Assembly (NCBI GenBank): GCA_031276815.1
Contig: JAISMJ010000063.1
Location: 1-47,180 of the forward strand
Origin: Treponema sp.
GTDB taxonomy: Bacteria; Spirochaetota; Spirochaetia; Treponematales; Breznakiellaceae
Direction: 5' to 3'
Length of the DNA: 47,180 bases
The translations under genes and the position numbers were made by a program. The first letter of the stretch is position 1. Every line of letters starts with the position of its first letter. The notes under the pieces were generated by a model that was not told the DNA's origin, ran no database searches, and saw nothing but the letters and a program-made list of their open reading frames with translations. This document shows positions 11,390 through 47,180 of the stretch, one piece after another.

Positions 11390-11653
11390 TTAGATGTATG
11401 GAGCCGCCGCGCATCTCACCGGATACGGTATGTTGATCACGCGGCGCTGTACGCCATGTCCCGCTTCGACCCGCCGTTTTTCCCTGAACAAGAGATGGCT
11501 ACTCTGCGGTACGTCTGCCGTCTCCGCGCAATCCGCCTGCGGGATGCGCGTCCACGCCGGATTCGCGCCCGCGCATTTGTCCTCGACATATTGATTCATA
11601 CATTTGAGCCATTGGTCAAATTTCGCGTCATTTGCGGGAATATAATCCGCCAT
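11390..11653 (-). pseudogene. Broken member of the repeated FDxWxxxMNQYV family
   Basis: Starting at ATG 11653 (AAGGA seven bases upstream), the first 39 codons (MADYIPANDAKFDQW..., MNQYV..KC) match the N-terminus of the intact gene at 24313-24981. After the residues IP the frame departs. A later match to the central domain (RRVAISCSGKNGGSKRD) is found in a different frame, so the gene has lost its middle and is frameshifted. The family function is unknown. Like the intact copy it lies directly downstream, on the same strand, of a 21-bp repeat array. Confidence 0.7.
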
Positions 11654-11786
11654 ACCGATATCCTTACGCCTATATATTCCGGAAACGGCAGCCGCTCCGG
11701 TTGATGCCGCGATACTTTGCGGGAATATGCCCGCGATACGTCCGGTTACAAAGCGCAAACCCAGCCCCGCGTGTGTTTTTACATGA

Positions 11787-12311
11787 GTTAGAAAGAGTAT
11801 TAATTGATATACGAAAGGCATATATCGAGTTAGAAAAAGTATGTCTTGAATTAGAGAAAAAATTTCTCGAGTTAGAAAAAGTATAACTCGAGTTAGAAAA
11901 AAAATTTCTCGAGTTAGAAAAAGTATAACTCGGGTTAGAAAAAAAATTTCTCAAGTTAGAAAAAGTATAACTCGAGTTAGAAAAAGTATAACTCGGGTTA
12001 GAAAAAGTATAACTCGAGTTAGAAAAAGTATAACTCGGGTTAGAAAAGTTATGACTCAAGTTAGAAAAAGTATGATTTGAGTTAGAAAAGTTATGACTCA
12101 AGTTAGAAAAAGTATGATTTGAGTTAGAAAAAATATAACTCAGGTTAGAAAAGTTATGACTCAAGTTAGAAAAAGTATGACTCAAGTTAGAAAAGTTATA
12201 ACTCAAGTTAGAAAAAGTATGACTTGGGTTAGAAAAAGTATGACTTGGGTTAGAAAATCCATATCGTGTGTTATAAAGATTATTACTTGAGGTACAAAAA
12301 GACTAGCGCAC
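11787..12311. repeat. 25-unit tandem array, 21-bp period, with TAACTCGAGTTA palindromes
   Basis: The unit begins GTTAGAAAAAGTATAACTC and is exactly 21 bases. Starts can be read at 11787, 11829, 11850, 11871, 11892 and onward every 21 bases to 12249, with decayed units at about 11808, 12270 and 12291, and no insertion or deletion across the readable units. Unit junctions form a 12-base palindrome, TAACTCGAGTTA or variants (TGACTCAAGTTA, TTTCTCGAGTTA). On the minus strand two frames stay open (heptads SYTFSNS and LTRVILF), but neither has a credible start. It lies about 130 bases upstream of the family pseudogene. Confidence 0.95.
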
Positions 12312-20563: not shown

Positions 20564-21859
20564 CTACTGCGCGTCATGTTCGCGGCATACCCGCCGGTTC
20601 AGCGGCGTCTTGGTTTCGGCGGCGTAGAGAGGCGCGGCGCGATGTTCAAACGCTATATCCCGCTTTAGGCGCTGCTTATTGTCAACTACATCGCCTCCCA
20701 AGGTAAAGAAGCGGAATCCGCCGCCGCCCGTCCAGCCCACCGCTTGCGATATGCCGCCTTGCTCTCCGTCTATGACGCGCTTGAGCCGCGCGGCGCAGAG
20801 GGTTTTTGCCTGTTCGCCTATTTCCACGCCGATATACCGCCGCCCCATCTTATGAGCCACCGCGGCGGTTGTGCCGGAGCCAAGAAAACTGTCAAGCACA
20901 TAATCGCCGGGGGCGGTGGATACTTCTATGATTCTTTTTAGTAAATATTCCGGTTTAGGAGTATCACAAAGAGTATCATTACCAAACAGGGCTTTTAGTT
21001 CATCCCGTGCGTCAGCGTTATTAGAAAGTCCAATCCACATTGTTTCAGGTATGCTTCTTGCGCTTTCCTTTAAAAACAGCTTTCGGTATAGAATATCTCC
21101 TTTTACAACAAGCCGGTTTTCCGCCTCCAGCCGTTTCATAGTATCGTGACTGAGAAGCCATAGCCGCCGTGAAAACTTCTTGCCATCATGCATGGTATAT
21201 TCAAATTCAAAACAACACTGTTTTCTTGTGCATAATCCCTGTAGTCTATATACGCCGCGCTTATCATTATCAGGGTTCTTATATACGCTTCTGGTATTTT
21301 CATCAAGAACAATACGATTGATATACAATGATTGCGCCCGTTTAGCGTAACATATAATATGGTCATGCATTATACTGAAATACCGCGATGCGTTATCCTT
21401 GCCTCTTTTTTTGTGCCATAGTATATGCGCGACAAAATTATTCCGTCCAAAAATCTCATCGCATATGACTTTTATGTATGCTTGTTCATTATCGTCTAAC
21501 TGAATAAAGAGCGCCCCGTCCTCCCGCAGAAACTGCTTGAGCGTTTCAAGGCGGAGATACATCATGGAAAGCCACCGCGTATGCTCTTTATTATCGTCAT
21601 AACGCTTAAACTCGCCGCTGGTATTATACGGCGGGTCTATGTAGATGCACTTCACCTTTCCGGCATAGAAGGGCAGCAAGGCTTCCAGAGCTTCGAGGTT
21701 ATCGCCCTGTACTATCAGGTTTCCTGTACCGGGATCGCCGTAACTGAAGCGCTCTTCTTCCAGCAAAAGACGGTATTCAGCGCGGGCGGCGGCTTCAAGG
21801 TCTTCCTCTCTACCCATCCACTGTAACGTGGGCATCAAGGCGTCTTTACCGTTTGCCAT
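20564..21859 (-). CDS. mod: Type III DNA adenine methyltransferase (Mod), copy 1, C-terminally truncated
   Basis: 431 residues, beta-class N6-adenine methyltransferase. Catalytic motif DPPYNTS is at about 75-78, and the AdoMet motif DSFLGSGTTAAVAHKMGRRY is near the C-terminal third. It would methylate one strand of an asymmetric site. Compared with copy 2, the ends match closely but the middle (about 130-310, target recognition) is different. An amber stop at 20566-20564 cuts the reading frame. In the same frame beyond it homology continues to TAG at 20422-20420, but with a 126-base in-frame deletion between GGCGCGGCG repeats. Core catalytic parts remain, so activity is possible. It starts at ATG 21859 (AAGG five bases upstream); MPTLQW at 21835 is an alternative. 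Confidence 0.85.
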   Translation of the reverse strand: MANGKDALMPTLQWMGREEDLEAAARAEYRLLLEEERFSYGDPGTGNLIVQGDNLEALEALLPFYAGKVKCIYIDPPYNTSGEFKRYDDNKEHTRWLSMMYLRLETLKQFLREDGALFIQLDDNEQAYIKVICDEIFGRNNFVAHILWHKKRGKDNASRYFSIMHDHIICYAKRAQSLYINRIVLDENTRSVYKNPDNDKRGVYRLQGLCTRKQCCFEFEYTMHDGKKFSRRLWLLSHDTMKRLEAENRLVVKGDILYRKLFLKESARSIPETMWIGLSNNADARDELKALFGNDTLCDTPKPEYLLKRIIEVSTAPGDYVLDSFLGSGTTAAVAHKMGRRYIGVEIGEQAKTLCAARLKRVIDGEQGGISQAVGWTGGGGFRFFTLGGDVVDNKQRLKRDIAFEHRAAPLYAAETKTPLNRRVCREHDAQ

Positions 21860-21937
21860 ACGAACCTTCGATGCGGCTTCATCGTTCCGCGCACTATCTT
21901 TCGCGCTTTCTCTTCTTCTTCTTCGCGCTGTTCATCG

Positions 21938-22114
21938 CTATAGATCATCATCGCTATCTTCATCATCATCATCGCTATCTTCTTCTTCAGTATCATCATC
22001 ATCCTCAGTCCACTCATACCCGCACTCAGGACATTCATACTGAAAGCCGTTAAAATAGGCGCCCTCTTCTCCGCATTGGGGGCAATCAGTTGTATCAGGA
22101 AAATCTTCGCTCAT
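21938..22114 (-). CDS. Small acidic zinc-ribbon protein, copy 1 (58 residues)
   Basis: A 58-codon gene from ATG 22114 to TAG 21938, preceded by GGAG. It begins MSEDFPDTTDCPQCG, has a second knuckle ECPECGYEW, and ends in an almost purely Asp/Glu tail of about 22 residues. The four-cysteine ribbon resembles the N-terminal zinc ribbon of PhnA-type proteins, but the rest of PhnA is absent. It is paralogous to the 78-residue protein at 23915-24151. Each of the two lies immediately upstream of a Mod gene, which suggests a linked role such as a regulator, chaperone or DNA mimic; none is established. Confidence 0.75.
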   Translation of the reverse strand: MSEDFPDTTDCPQCGEEGAYFNGFQYECPECGYEWTEDDDDTEEEDSDDDDEDSDDDL

Positions 22115-22243
22115 AGTCCGCTCCTTATATCTATCATTGTTACACTATATTTCTCAAAATATCAAGCGTAGCATTGCACAACCCTCTTGCATGGTACCGG
22201 TATAAGCATATATACGCTCCGCCTGTGTTCCGCTTCCCCTACC

Positions 22244-23815
22244 CTATCGCCACGCCTTTATATCATAAGGCGTTTGTTTGAAGATAATGTTGTTGTTGGC
22301 GAGGCTCATTCGGGAAAGCCGAGTCGCTTCTCCGTACACGACAAGGCGGCGATATGCTATCGCCGCGCCGCTTTCTTGCGCGGCGGCGTCAATTGCGCGA
22401 AGGATAGCGTTGAGCGTTGCATGGGTCAGCACATTCCCGCGGTCTATCCGCGTATCTCCTGCCACGCCGTTATACAACAGCGCGTACGCCGCGCCCTCAT
22501 GCGCGCCTAAAAACGGCGAATGGGCGTCGTGTCCGCGGCATATCCGCCGGTTCAGCGGCGTCTTGGTTTCCGTGAAGTAGATATGCGCGGCGAGCTGGTC
22601 AAACGATATATCCCGCTGTATCCGCCGCTCGTCATCAAACACCGCGTCTCCTAAGGTAAAAAAGCGGAATCCGCTGCCGCCCGTCCAGCCTGCCGCTCGC
22701 GATACGCCGCCTTGCTCGCCGTCTATGACGCGCTTGAGCCGCGCGGCGCAGTGAGTCTTTGCTTGTTCGCCCGTTTCCACGCCGGTATACCGCCGCCCCA
22801 TCTTATGAGCCACCGCGGCGGTTGTGCCGGAGCCAAGAAAACTGTCAAGCACATAATCGCCGGTGGCGGCGGCAAGGGCAAGGATCCTTTGTATAAGGCG
22901 TTCAGGTTTGGGCGTGGAAAAGGGATCATCAGGAAAGAGCGCTTTGATTTCTTTTTTCGCTTCTTGATTATCTCCAACTTCATCTCTTGTCCCGATAGTG
23001 AGCGGAACAACGCCTTCTTTTACTTCCGATAGAAATTTTTTAGAACGCGGGGCATCATCGCCATGAGCGCCAAACCAGATTCTCTTATCCTTGATGAGTT
23101 CCTGCATCCGTTCTTTTGTTGTCATCCAACTTCTACTTTTAGGCGGCATACATTCTTTACCGGAGGGGCTTATTATGGGATATATACACTGTTTACGCGG
23201 CGTTTTTACATGACAGGGATGAGACGCCCGCACTCCTCGCGGGTCGTTATCAGGATTTGTATACTTTTTTAAGCTGCTTTCGGCGCGTTCCAACAAACGG
23301 GGACGCCACGTATCCTTATGTCTCGCATGACACACTATATGGTCATGATTATCGCTAAAGTATCTTGCATCGTTAGCGCGCGTATGTTTCTTTTGCCATA
23401 CTACATTCGCGACAACATTATTTCTTCCAAAAATTTCATCGCATATAACTTTCAAATAATGACTTTCATCGTCATCAATGCTTATCCATATACTCCCGTC
23501 CTCCCTCAGAAATTGCTTGAGCATTTCAAGACGGGGATACATCATGGAAAGCCAGATCGTATGCTTCTTATTATCATCATACTGCTCAAACGCGCTTCCG
23601 GTATTATACGGCGGGTCTATGCGGATGCGCTTCACGTGTCCGGCATAAAAGGGCAGCAAGGCTTTCAGAGCCTCAAGATTATCGCCCTGTACTATCAGGT
23701 TTCCCGTACCGGGATCGCCGTAACTGAAACGTTCTTCTTCCGTCAAAAGACGGTAAACAGCGCGGGAGGCGGCGGTAAGGGCTTCCTCTCTGCCCAGCCA
23801 CTGCAAAACGGGCAT
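22244..23815 (-). CDS. mod: Type III DNA adenine methyltransferase (Mod), copy 2
   Basis: 523 residues, apparently full length. DPPYNTG is at 67-70 and DSFLGSGTTAAVAHKMGRRY near residue 315. The C-terminal tail ends NNIIFKQTPYDIKAW. The N-terminal ~110 and C-terminal ~180 residues are highly similar to copy 1, while the central target-recognition part is unrelated or strongly diverged, implying a different recognition sequence. ATG 23815 has AAGGA eight bases upstream. No res gene follows this copy; the acidic zinc-ribbon copy 1 comes next instead. The arrangement reads as a tandem duplication of a zinc-ribbon-mod cassette. Confidence 0.93.
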   Translation of the reverse strand: MPVLQWLGREEALTAASRAVYRLLTEEERFSYGDPGTGNLIVQGDNLEALKALLPFYAGHVKRIRIDPPYNTGSAFEQYDDNKKHTIWLSMMYPRLEMLKQFLREDGSIWISIDDDESHYLKVICDEIFGRNNVVANVVWQKKHTRANDARYFSDNHDHIVCHARHKDTWRPRLLERAESSLKKYTNPDNDPRGVRASHPCHVKTPRKQCIYPIISPSGKECMPPKSRSWMTTKERMQELIKDKRIWFGAHGDDAPRSKKFLSEVKEGVVPLTIGTRDEVGDNQEAKKEIKALFPDDPFSTPKPERLIQRILALAAATGDYVLDSFLGSGTTAAVAHKMGRRYTGVETGEQAKTHCAARLKRVIDGEQGGVSRAAGWTGGSGFRFFTLGDAVFDDERRIQRDISFDQLAAHIYFTETKTPLNRRICRGHDAHSPFLGAHEGAAYALLYNGVAGDTRIDRGNVLTHATLNAILRAIDAAAQESGAAIAYRRLVVYGEATRLSRMSLANNNIIFKQTPYDIKAWR

Positions 23816-24312: not shown

Positions 24313-24981
24313 TCAGGGAACAATCGCGCTTTGTATTTCGGTATAATCCCCCCGCTTGCCCGTTTCGTTCTGCCACTGCATAGCGAGGTACGCGGTCTTG
24401 CCCCGCTGCTCCTCCTCGAACTCAAGGATGTGGGGGCTGCGGGTGGCAAGTTCGGTGTGGGGAAGCTTCTTGGGGTCTTTCGGAGATGCGTCAAAGATAC
24501 CCCATGAGATAATAGCGCCGTTCATGCCGTCCGGTATGGCGCGTCTCGCGGTTCCCTCGTCATGGAAGGAGACGATGAGGCGGCGTATGCCCTTCACCTC
24601 AATATTAAAGACCGGCATGGTTTTGGGTTTGCCGATGGGCGTACGGGTGGCGTCGTGGTTAGGGATGCCCATCGCCGTGCGGTCCTCGTCCGTAACCGGC
24701 GGGAAGCGCAGGTATTGGTTCACAAACGGGCGGATCGCCTTCTTCGCCTCGTCTTTCATGTCGTTCTTCGCTTCCGTGTCCACAGGCGTATGGGGACCGA
24801 TGGTCCGCGCGTACGCCGTACTCCATGATGCGTACACATTGTCCATCGCCGTCCGCACCGCCGCGGGAATATGCGTCCACTCCGGCTCGCTTCCGCTACA
24901 CTTTTGGTTGACATACTGATTCATAAACTTGAACCACTTATCAAATTCCGTATCGCTTAATGAAAGGTAGTCCTTTCCCAT
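24313..24981 (-). CDS. Intact member of the repeated FDxWxxxMNQYV family, function unknown
   Basis: About 222 residues from ATG 24981, chosen over the ATG at 24987 because GGAGG then has an eight-base spacer and the start aligns with the 11653 copy. The N-terminal part is helical (SDTEFDKWFKFMNQYVNQKC). A linker follows, then a beta-rich C-terminal half (FNIEVKGIRRLIVSFHDEG ... LEFEEEQRGKTAYLAMQWQN) that looks like a small immunoglobulin/fibronectin-like fold. There is no signal peptide. Related copies are the pseudogene at 11390-11653 and the partial gene at 47024-47180. It is preceded by a strong promoter and a leader made of 21-bp repeats. I do not know its function. Confidence 0.85.
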   Translation of the reverse strand: MGKDYLSLSDTEFDKWFKFMNQYVNQKCSGSEPEWTHIPAAVRTAMDNVYASWSTAYARTIGPHTPVDTEAKNDMKDEAKKAIRPFVNQYLRFPPVTDEDRTAMGIPNHDATRTPIGKPKTMPVFNIEVKGIRRLIVSFHDEGTARRAIPDGMNGAIISWGIFDASPKDPKKLPHTELATRSPHILEFEEEQRGKTAYLAMQWQNETGKRGDYTEIQSAIVP

Positions 24982-25010
24982 CTCCATCTCCTCCCTTTTC
25001 CAACATAGTT

Positions 25011-25304
25011 ACAGACCTCTGTAAATGTTTTACAGACCTCTTAAAATGATCTACAGACCTCTGTAAAACATTTACAGACCTCTTAAAATCATTTACAGAC
25101 CTCTGTAAATGATTTACAGACCTCTTAAAATGATCTACAGACCTCTGTAAATGATTTACAGACCTCTTAAAATCATTTACAGACCTCTTAAAGTGATCTA
25201 CAGACCTCTGTAAATGTTTTACAAAAATCTTTCAAAGAATCACAGCCTTCTATGGACGCTCTATAAAAAAATTAACGTGATCTGTAGACCGCTTATGAAG
25301 CATT
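25011..25304. repeat. 14-unit tandem array, 21-bp period, of TTTACAGACCTCTGTAAA palindromes
   Basis: ACAGACCTCT begins at 25011, 25032, 25053, 25074, 25095, 25116, 25137, 25158, 25179 and 25200, exactly every 21 bases. Decayed but in-phase units follow at 25221, 25242, 25263 and 25284. About half the good units complete an 18-base perfect dyad, TTTACAGA-CC-TCTGTAAA; the others end TCTTAAAA. The array ends on the -10 box of the promoter driving the family gene, so it would be transcribed as a ~300-base leader. One minus-strand frame is open (heptads like RSVNDFK) but has no start codon. Confidence 0.97.
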
Positions 25305-26004: not shown

Positions 26005-27213
26005 ATGAACAATCTCTTTATTACCAAAATCATGATAGATGCGCTGCGTCATGTATCCGGTTTAGCGATTCCACTATCGGAACATGAGCGCAAACATCTT
26101 ATACTGACCGGCAAAAATGGCAGCGGAAAAACGACTTTGCTTGAAACTATGCGTGATTATATGAGGCGTCCCTCGTTTTGTCGTGACGCGGACGGCTCCG
26201 CGTATCTCTCTGATCCCACGGGAACACAAAAGCCGGAAATCCACGGTATGAATACATCCGAAGAAGCTTTTCTTTCCCCCCATAATAAAACAGCCGGCGC
26301 TATACGCATATATGTCAACGCTCCTGACGGGCAACCCGTTCACGGCGTATTCAATGATACTCTGGTCGTGTATATTTCCGCCCACCGGTTACTGACCATT
26401 CCTGTTGCAAAGGCAATCGAAAGAGTCGACGCCGGTACGCATGTCCCCCTTGATGCGGATCTCAGCTCCGGTTTTCTACAATACATGCTGTATTTGGATT
26501 ATCAGAAGTTATCCGCCGCAAGTGAAGGGAACCATGCGACCGAGTCCCGCATAGCGCAATGGTTTGACCGTTTTTTACAAACCCTGCGTGAGGTGTACGG
26601 CTGTCCGGCTCTTGCGTTAAAAAAAGAAGCGAAGGACCTTAATTTCAATATAGTCATGCCGGACCGCGAACCGTTCAGCTTACAGCACATGGCAGACGGC
26701 TATTCCGCCCTTCTTAAAATCGTCATGGAACTGATAATGCGTATGGAACATCAGGCGCATACTGCCTATGATATGCCGGGTATCGTGCTGATAGACGAAC
26801 TTGAGGCTCATCTGCATATTGAACTACAAAAAAAAGTGCTGCCCTTCCTGACCGGTATGTTTCCTAATATCCAATTTATCATAAGCACTCATTCCCCCTT
26901 TGTGATTAGTTCTATTGACAAAGCAGTCATCTATGATCTGGAACATCAACAGCGTTTGGAAGACTTGAGCGCTTATTCCTACGAAGGGATCGTTGAATAC
27001 TATTTTAATACGGATATGTATTCTGATAAAATAAAGAGCCGGTTTGAACGGTATAAAGCATTGATAGCGAAGATACGCCGGACACCGGAAGAAAACGATG
27101 AGCTTGTTGAACTTATCGTCTATCTCAAGCAAATTCCTCCCGCCGCCGCTTCAGAATTGATATATTCTTTTCGGGAACTGGAACGGCAAAGGAAAGATAC
27201 GGCTCATGGTTAA
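26005..27213 (+). CDS. AAA/ABC-type ATPase of a Septu-like (PtuA) defence pair
   Basis: 402 residues of the OLD/RecF-like ABC ATPase group. Walker A GKNGSGKTT is at about 36-44, a signature-like ADGYSALLKIV comes before Walker B, Walker B GIVLIDELEAH is at 259-269, and H296 lies in the switch segment ISTHSPFVI. Such ATPases pair with HNH nucleases in the Septu (PtuA-PtuB) anti-phage system, where the ATPase forms the scaffold and nucleotide sensor. The following gene overlaps by eight bases and encodes an HNH protein, which is why Septu is proposed. No reverse transcriptase is nearby, so a retron form is unlikely. ATG 26005 follows AAGGGG by eight bases. Confidence 0.8.
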   Translation: MNNLFITKIMIDALRHVSGLAIPLSEHERKHLILTGKNGSGKTTLLETMRDYMRRPSFCRDADGSAYLSDPTGTQKPEIHGMNTSEEAFLSPHNKTAGAIRIYVNAPDGQPVHGVFNDTLVVYISAHRLLTIPVAKAIERVDAGTHVPLDADLSSGFLQYMLYLDYQKLSAASEGNHATESRIAQWFDRFLQTLREVYGCPALALKKEAKDLNFNIVMPDREPFSLQHMADGYSALLKIVMELIMRMEHQAHTAYDMPGIVLIDELEAHLHIELQKKVLPFLTGMFPNIQFIISTHSPFVISSIDKAVIYDLEHQQRLEDLSAYSYEGIVEYYFNTDMYSDKIKSRFERYKALIAKIRRTPEENDELVELIVYLKQIPPAAASELIYSFRELERQRKDTAHG

Positions 27214-27853
27214 GCTGCATAAGTCACCTCTTCCCGTTGGCGTTACCATTAAATCCGGGTTGGACTATCGCAAGGAGCCGGTCTTCTCAATAATCAAAGA
27301 CGATTGTAACAATAAATGCTATATATGCGAAGAAAAGGGAACTACAAGTATGCATGTGGAGCATCGTGTTTCGCAATCATTCGATCCGTCCCGTAAATAT
27401 GACTGGAACAATTTGTTGCTAAGTTGCGGTCATTGCAATCGCGTCAAGGGGAGCCGTTACAATACGATACTTGACTGTACGCGAGTTGATCCGGAAGCGT
27501 ATATCTCCCTGCGTATCGCAATAGGATTGTATGAAAGAGTAACGGTCATCAAAATAGGAGAGCGTGACGGCGTTGATGAGACAATACGGCTGCTTGATAC
27601 CGTATACAACGGCGAATCAACCGCTATATTGAAATATGAATGTAAAAATCTGCGCGCCCATGTACTTGCCGAAGTACAAACATTCCAGCAGTTGCTTGAC
27701 GGATACTTTGAAGAGAACGATACGGCTCTTAAAGAGGCTTTCCAGAGAAAAATCAGCGAAAGCATTAGTCGCGCTTCCAATTTCGCCTCTTTTAAGAGGG
27801 GCATAATCAAGAATAATGATACCTTGTTTGCATTATTCAAAGACACGCTATAA
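27206..27853 (+). CDS. HNH endonuclease of a Septu-like (PtuB) defence pair
   Basis: 215 residues. The HNH core is CYIC (C38, C41), then MHVEHRV (E52, H53), DWNNLLLSC (N69) and CGHC (C74, C77) before NRVKGS, i.e. zinc cysteines framing the beta-beta-alpha metal nuclease. The N-terminus (VKLHKSPLP) and the WNNLLLSC...KG block resemble the HNH proteins associated with PtuA-type ATPases. The C-terminal ~100 residues are helical, with an RAHVLAEVQTF stretch. The eight-base overlap with the ATPase stop codon indicates coupled translation. The target, phage DNA or host nucleic acid, cannot be read from sequence. Confidence 0.82.
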   Translation: MVKLHKSPLPVGVTIKSGLDYRKEPVFSIIKDDCNNKCYICEEKGTTSMHVEHRVSQSFDPSRKYDWNNLLLSCGHCNRVKGSRYNTILDCTRVDPEAYISLRIAIGLYERVTVIKIGERDGVDETIRLLDTVYNGESTAILKYECKNLRAHVLAEVQTFQQLLDGYFEENDTALKEAFQRKISESISRASNFASFKRGIIKNNDTLFALFKDTL

Positions 27854-46997: not shown

Positions 46998-47035
46998 GGA
47001 ATAACCCGTTATGGAATAACTCGTTATGGAATAAC
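46998..47035. repeat. 15-bp tandem repeat over the stop codon of the family gene
   Basis: GGAATAAC begins at 46998, 47013 and 47028, exactly 15 bases apart. On the minus strand this repeats the last codons and stop of the upstream gene (VIP-stop-R) two more times. Confidence 0.8.
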
Positions 47036-47180
47036 GGCGGAATATATCTCGCTCCAGTCCTCTTTCAGCACGGTCCCGTTTTCCCATCTCGCCGCAAAAT
47101 ACACCCGCTTCCCCCGCTCGTCTTCTTCAAACGTCAGTTCCAGCGGGCTTTTCGTGGCAAAGTCCGAATGAAGCAGGTCC
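47024..47180 (-). CDS. Third member of the repeated FDxWxxxMNQYV family (3' end only)
   Basis: The last 51 codons before TAA 47026-47024 are visible; the gene enters from beyond the window. The residues (LHSDFATKSPLELTFEEDE ... RVYFAARWENGT ... EIYSAVIP) align with the C-terminus of the gene at 24313 (LPHTELATRSPHILEFEEEQ ... EIQSAIVP). Its 5' part, and any repeat array in front of it, are outside the window. Confidence 0.85.
   Translation of the reverse strand, partial: DLLHSDFATKSPLELTFEEDERGKRVYFAARWENGTVLKEDWSEIYSAVIP

Follow-up and report, generated by a model that had tools for sequence, protein, structure and literature searches.

The window examined here is a stretch of 47,180 nucleotides from a Treponema genome (G000; 2.37 Mb in 131 contigs), and it holds three minus-strand members of one gene family, two of which have a tandem array upstream. 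The first member is truncated: its surviving 5′ part (11531–11653, minus strand, ATG at 11653) matches residues 5–44 of a 224-residue paralogue, the homology stops there, and after these roughly 40 residues unrelated sequence runs up to a stop at 11390. Upstream of it, in the minus-strand sense, is a 21-bp tandem array whose unit on the gene's strand is TTTTTCTAACTCGAGTTATAC. The core reported by TRF (11825–12257) has a period of 21, 20.6 copies and 0% indels, and with its degenerate edge units the array occupies approximately 11782–12311 (minus strand), or about 24 units that keep strict register. At lag 21 the identity is 0.754, whereas 2000 shuffles reach at most 0.387 and the other lags from 15 to 29 give 0.20–0.35, which bears out the exact 21-bp period that the first-pass annotation had described in front of the broken paralogue. 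The palindrome that it had assigned to every unit holds for part of the array: the perfect form TAACTCGAGTTA occurs in only 3 of the 24 units and TAACTC[A/G][A/G]GTTA in 8, and the left half, TTTTTCTAAC, is the better conserved one. The units adjoin one another and repeat over their full 21 bp, and a test for a CRISPR array found no unique spacers. Related arrays lie at 7 further sites in G000, so that this unit type is found in eight places there and at most once, weakly, in relatives; two of the eight places are at contig ends, where a gene may have been lost to assembly.

The intact member (24313–24987, minus strand) encodes the 224-residue protein, with a helical N-domain and a predicted fibronectin-III C-domain. 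Its own upstream array (25009–25304, minus strand) has a TRF core at 25009–25223 with a 42-bp super-period and the unit TTACAGACCTCTGTAAATGAT on the plus strand, and is degenerate up to about 25304. As had been noticed at first reading, this unit is unrelated to that of the first array. The third member is a C-terminal fragment (47027–47180, minus strand) cut by the contig end. Right after the fragment's stop codon, at 46998–47035, are 15-bp palindromic repeats (GTTATTCCATAACGA), and repeats of this type also follow other members (L007 and L026). Many G000 contigs terminate within the 3′ part of family genes.

The neighbours of the two array-bearing loci include methylases, PtuA/PtuB-like genes, a solute-binding protein and a lyase, and the window also carries dnaX and an aspartase/fumarase-type gene. 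Beside the intact paralogue, at 26005–27853, is a Septu-like defence pair consisting of a PtuA-like ATPase (PADLOC E 7e-98) and a PtuB-like HNH nuclease (E 2e-46). Two consecutive type III-like DNA methyltransferases, for both of which the same PADLOC model is best, occupy 20564–23815.

The protein family

The 224-residue protein has 36 matches in G000, or 47 with a profile search. Within the taxonomic family to which G000 belongs members are common, with up to 51 matches per genome, and the rest of the phylum has almost none. The named relatives are Treponema and Spirochaetaceae MAGs, whose bins presumably come from termite guts. Members were also seen on contigs of MAGs named Planctomycetaceae (L227, L228 and L231), through either transfer or wrong binning. 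The viral contigs, phages and plasmids searched yielded no relatives. The window protein matches no Pfam, NCBIfam, PADLOC or PHROG model; neither these searches nor the structural model revealed a transposase, recombinase or other enzyme domain, and no HU-type DNA-binding domain is matched in Pfam at E ≤ 1 by the window protein or by two other members.

An AlphaFold2 model built with 73 relatives is confident (pLDDT 95) and comprises four helices (residues 12–106) and a fibronectin-III domain. The modelled C-domain (residues 118–224) aligns with FN3 domains in the PDB with Z 12.5 and an rmsd of 2.0 over 95 residues, and is thus predicted to adopt the fibronectin type III fold, an FN3 beta-sandwich. 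The modelled N-domain, a helical bundle, has no significant PDB match, the best (Z 8.2) being to a designed protein, and it contains no recognised DNA-binding fold. An assignment to the Avd/S23-type bundles was rejected, the Z scores of 5.7–6.8 being below the level that is meaningful for helical bundles. With a median net charge of −1, the family protein is not basic. The family genes are under purifying selection, with a median dN/dS of 0.14 among close pairs. We also note that N- and C-domains are shuffled among L001–L119, where many pairs are more than 65% identical in the C-domain and less than 45% identical in the N-domain.

Period, position and turnover of the 21-bp arrays

How general is the arrangement seen in the window? 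A period-21 array lies upstream of 148 of 163 family members (about 91%) in treponemes of the termite-gut type. A first set comprised 110 members with at least 150 bp of upstream sequence, of which 100 have a lag-21 array by a simple lag detector and 10 have none; in a second, taken from a named collection and made up mostly of one subfamily, the count is 48 of 53. Every other lag from 15 to 30 is represented by 0–3 members in the two sets (0 to 2 in the first), and one distant member, L185, has a period of 22. These counts uphold the suggestion of the first-pass annotation that the period is constrained. The position is similarly regular: in the first set the median array is 240 bp long and ends a median of 63 bp from the ATG, and the aggregate over members shows a Shine-Dalgarno AGGAG at −12 to −7. 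No promoter signal stood out in a sigma-70 scan (best score 8.1, against 7.9 in shuffles).

Within G000, 20 of the 22 family genes with upstream sequence have an array, the exceptions being L021 and L004. In a 578-kb sample of this genome, made up mostly of contigs without family hits, 46 of 66 tandem-repeat regions are 21-bp or 23-bp arrays. When ORFs were called there by a simple greedy method, about 17 non-edge gaps contained a 21-bp array and 157 gaps of at least 100 bp were array-free. A pooled Fisher test of members against these gaps gives an odds ratio of 71, which is to be read as an effect size only, the members coming from many genomes and the gaps from one. The genes flanking 21-bp arrays in G000 show no orientation preference (tandem 8, convergent 5 and divergent 4, against a background of 98, 28 and 31, respectively). 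The first-pass annotation had envisaged two contrary outcomes, namely that most members lack upstream arrays and that 21-bp arrays are equally common next to unrelated genes. The first is false in both sets of members and the second is false in G000, where arrays without a family gene do exist. The annotation had also taken symmetry to be a shared property of the arrays. Dyad symmetry exceeds that of column shuffles in 47 of 96 21-bp arrays (p<0.05; about 5 expected), and the arrays with a significant dyad have two conservation peaks per unit; symmetry is therefore common and not universal.

Unit sequence follows the protein over short distances only. Units of distant paralogues are no more similar than background and those of close paralogues are alike: unit similarity exceeds 0.5 in 94% of pairs at 80–90% protein identity as opposed to 0–1% of pairs below 30%, and is near background once protein identity falls below about 60%. 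The recent duplicates L006 and L007 of G000 encode proteins that are 94% identical and have flanks about 90% identical on both sides, and in the L007 array the left half-site is altered in most units while old-type units persist at the far edge. Six of the protein differences in this pair cluster in N-domain helix 3; among close paralogues generally, helix 2 is the most variable part. The comparison shows block-wise turnover of an array at an unchanged period. The independent origin that the first-pass annotation had assumed for arrays of like period and unlike unit is thus not established: the flanks of this pair are conserved and the array between them has turned over in situ, so that arrays may share ancestry by position even where the sequence has been exchanged. 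A period fixed at 21 bp with a free unit sequence is well supported, and we infer that specificity, if there is any, changes fast.

A check put forward at first reading was whether unit type co-varies with the N-domain. Among pairs with similar C-domains, unit similarity does track N-domain identity (p 0.002 by permutation). In a larger data set its partial correlation is 0.13 with the N-domain given the C-domain and 0.09 with the C-domain given the N-domain, so that the two effects are not well separated. Half-sites common to N-domain groups can be picked out by eye only, such as GATAAG..CTTATC in the 'YIPTKESEF' group, and for pairs whose N-domains are alike and whose C-domains are not, a k-mer test for shared half-sites gave a non-significant result (p 0.14). 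No amino-acid columns convincingly tracked unit changes, and the lower unit similarity within than between genomes that would signal selection for orthogonality was not seen consistently. The self/non-self pairing of array and protein suggested in the first-pass annotation is, from the sequence comparisons, plausible.

HU-type genes with 23-bp arrays, and arrays without a gene

The 23-bp arrays led us to a second family, the HU-DNA_bdg+DUF4469 proteins, in which PF14848 and PF14734 are both matched above gathering scores (118 and 107 bits in L140, and 95 and 94 bits in L141, respectively). G000 has 11 DUF4469 places over the cut-off. In one clade, sampled as 27 members from G000 and from treponemes of another taxonomic family, closed genomes included, 25 have a 23-bp array that starts no more than 120 bp downstream of the stop codon, and none has an array at another lag. 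The other DUF4469 clade has such a downstream array in 0 of 13 members, the clades being told apart by their scores to a model made from the G000 members and not by a tree. Twenty of 24 downstream 23-bp arrays are significantly palindromic. At the level of sequence, then, N-domains of two unrelated kinds are joined to an Ig-like or FN3 domain, and in both cases the gene adjoins a fixed-period array. A very long 23-bp array of about 82 units (L138:9969-11943) has no HU+DUF4469 gene nearby.

Arrays of gene-linked unit types are also scattered between the genes of G000 without a gene of their own. Compared with a null built from arrays of other genomes, 14 of 25 gene-less 21-bp arrays, a count that takes in arrays near contig ends, resemble a gene-linked unit of their own genome more closely than the 95% level; among the gene-less 23-bp arrays, 6 of 13 do so beyond the null maximum. 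At contig ends (L306 and L308, for example) a gene has perhaps been cut off, and only interior arrays count as gene-less. When interior gene-less arrays are compared with gene loci by BLAST, the array sequence alone is shared and there are no common ends. The closed genome G352 has two members with one array each and no scattered copies; scattered arrays are thus common in G000 and, judged from these genomes, not essential. One 21-bp unit type (ATTCTGTCACAGAAT), found at L139:6711-7144 and L161:8962-9302, is linked to no family gene in the assembled part of G000.

A proposed gene-array module, its rivals and known systems

We propose that each locus is a two-part module composed of a gene and an adjacent tandem array that would serve as the cognate DNA-binding platform of the encoded protein, and we give this reading a probability of roughly 0.55. 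The protein would bind its own array as double-stranded DNA, with about one dimer per unit, the units probably tending to hold two inverted half-sites approximately one helical turn apart. As 21 bp corresponds to two turns, all dimers on an array would be oriented alike, and their binding could be cooperative. DNA recognition would fall to the helical N-domain, leaving the fibronectin-III domain to project from the filament and make protein contacts. Given the position of the array immediately before the ribosome-binding site, we propose that binding would first of all control expression of the gene itself in cis, and that the protein would occupy gene-less arrays of like unit in trans. We favour DNA binding mainly because of the parallel between the two families, the HU-type family with its Ig-like domain displaying the same design with 23-bp arrays downstream, and because one of the two carries an HU domain. 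The N-domain without a recognised DNA-binding fold, the near-neutral charge and the half of the arrays that have no significant dyad point against cognate binding, as do the 10 of 110 members without an array, the loss of unit similarity below about 60% protein identity, the poor separation of N- and C-domain effects and the lack of a promoter signal. More tentatively, we can imagine dozens of distinct protein-satellite pairs per genome, with arrays of the same type bound in trans, as a satellite-based means of chromosome marking or self-recognition reached independently by two families (21 bp upstream and 23 bp downstream), a picture that is possible and that we would not call probable.

Could the locus instead be a selfish or mobile unit, whose protein promotes the amplification or spread of its array and whose gene-less arrays are non-autonomous copies, as REP are to RAYT? 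The many gene-less arrays of gene-linked types in G000, the duplication of whole cassettes (e.g., L006/L007 and L304/L305) and the up to about 50 family copies per genome would all fit such a unit. We nevertheless consider it unlikely given a protein devoid of transposase, recombinase or other enzyme domains, phages and plasmids without a family match, the two members and absence of scattered copies in closed G352, and interior arrays that have only array sequence, and no ends, in common with gene loci. Alternatively, the arrays might act through DNA shape or topology, or through a general factor such as HU, with the neighbouring protein doing something else and the array just setting its expression. 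A period of two helical turns with a nearly free sequence, the absence of symmetry in half of the arrays and a protein that is not basic are what this reading would lead one to expect; a unit type that follows paralogue identity is not, nor would a general factor predict a second family with a period of 23 bp on the other side of the gene, and we hold it to be distinctly unlikely.

The strictness of the period bears on the remaining explanations. It may merely be a legacy of one ancestral array, passed on by slippage with no selection on period, as tandem duplication keeps a period and the arrays clearly turn over in place. Against this, 148 arrays with mostly unrelated units show no shift to 20 or 22 bp in the main group, and the full replacement of sequence without indels would be unexpected under neutrality; we regard such passive inheritance as improbable. 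For a chain of RNA hairpins, transcribed in the mRNA leader (or trailer) and bound by the encoded protein, a strict 21-bp spacing has no obvious reason, and gene-less arrays lie between genes of all orientations. Partly palindromic units do adjoin the gene, and mismatches across the dyads of 23-bp arrays show a slight excess of G.T over A.C (37 vs 22, p 0.07). On the gene's strand of the 21-bp arrays the corresponding counts are 187 and 190 (p 0.92), with no sign of selection for RNA hairpins; on this mismatch-strand test we rejected the RNA reading for the 21-bp arrays, and overall we find it very improbable. Likewise, 21 bp would be seven codons, and the array could be a coding heptapeptide repeat of a longer protein, the gene's frame being open through the array at some loci (L002, L014, L024 and L027). 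That frame is open through 29 of 93 arrays, no more than the other frames (25–48), and stays open between array and ATG in only 11, indicating that the 21-bp arrays are not coding; the ribosome-binding site directly before the ATG also argues against translation through the array. The coding reading, discarded on these counts of frame openness, is scarcely credible.

If the pairs of gene and cognate array are real, each genome offers dozens of natural protein-DNA specificities, a library that allows direct comparison of period, half-site and protein sequence. One would then also ask why so many are needed, whether for chromosome organisation, for control of the module's own gene or for the recognition of self against incoming DNA. 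Since closed genomes of other treponemes contain the 23-bp counterpart, the idea can be tested in strains that may be cultivable.

Finally, how does the proposed module compare with known systems? By analogy, it would work most like iterons and Rep, parC and ParR, and REP and RAYT, and it fails a tested defining feature of each. Iteron-controlled replicons likewise have tandem sites (17–22-bp iterons) about two helical turns apart beside the gene of their binder, Rep. The window protein has no Rep family match in Pfam, and its N-domain, whose model has no significant PDB match, may still be a relative of the winged-helix Rep initiators. Unlike such replicons, the window family occurs in dozens of copies on contigs with chromosomal genes, and its unit varies between paralogues; with dnaX and an aspartase/fumarase-type gene in the window, up to about 50 copies per genome and no plasmid match, a plasmid or extrachromosomal location is not what we found. 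The plasmid centromeres parC/ParR and tubC/TubR similarly place an array of repeats of approximately 10–21 bp upstream of the gene for a DNA-binding adaptor, but ParMRC, TubZRC and ParABS include a partition NTPase, none of which adjoins the window loci, and reside on plasmids. REP/RAYT systems also consist of a gene with cognate repeats beside it and more scattered in the genome, the repeat type following the protein; here, in contrast, the repeats are tandem arrays of exact period and not paired hairpins, and no Y1 transposase domain was matched in Pfam, NCBIfam or PHROG.

The nearest likeness in protein design is to the HU/IHF-superfamily proteins with an Ig-like domain (PF14848 HU-DNA_bdg with PF14734 DUF4469; HU-HIG, PF18291, is a related Pfam model), which, like the window family, join an N-domain to an Ig-like C-domain and occur as several paralogues per genome. 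The HU/IHF superfamily has reportedly been surveyed by Burroughs et al. in 2017. The two families differ in N-domain (helical bundle as opposed to HU), C-domain model, period and side of the gene, and the HU-DNA_bdg+DUF4469 genes of the array-bearing clade lie beside a fixed-period, partly palindromic 23-bp array downstream. In the literature searched we found no report of arrays beside HU-DNA_bdg+DUF4469 genes, of arrays of the 21-bp type or of a function for DUF4469. Bacteria are not otherwise known to maintain a multitude of distinct satellite arrays with a gene next to each, and we know of no system, the searched literature having given none, in which a genome holds many paralogues whose private arrays all share one period. 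We therefore suggest that the novelty lies in the architecture, a gene with a private array of fixed period repeated many times in one genome, to which cognate DNA binding is the function that we predict.
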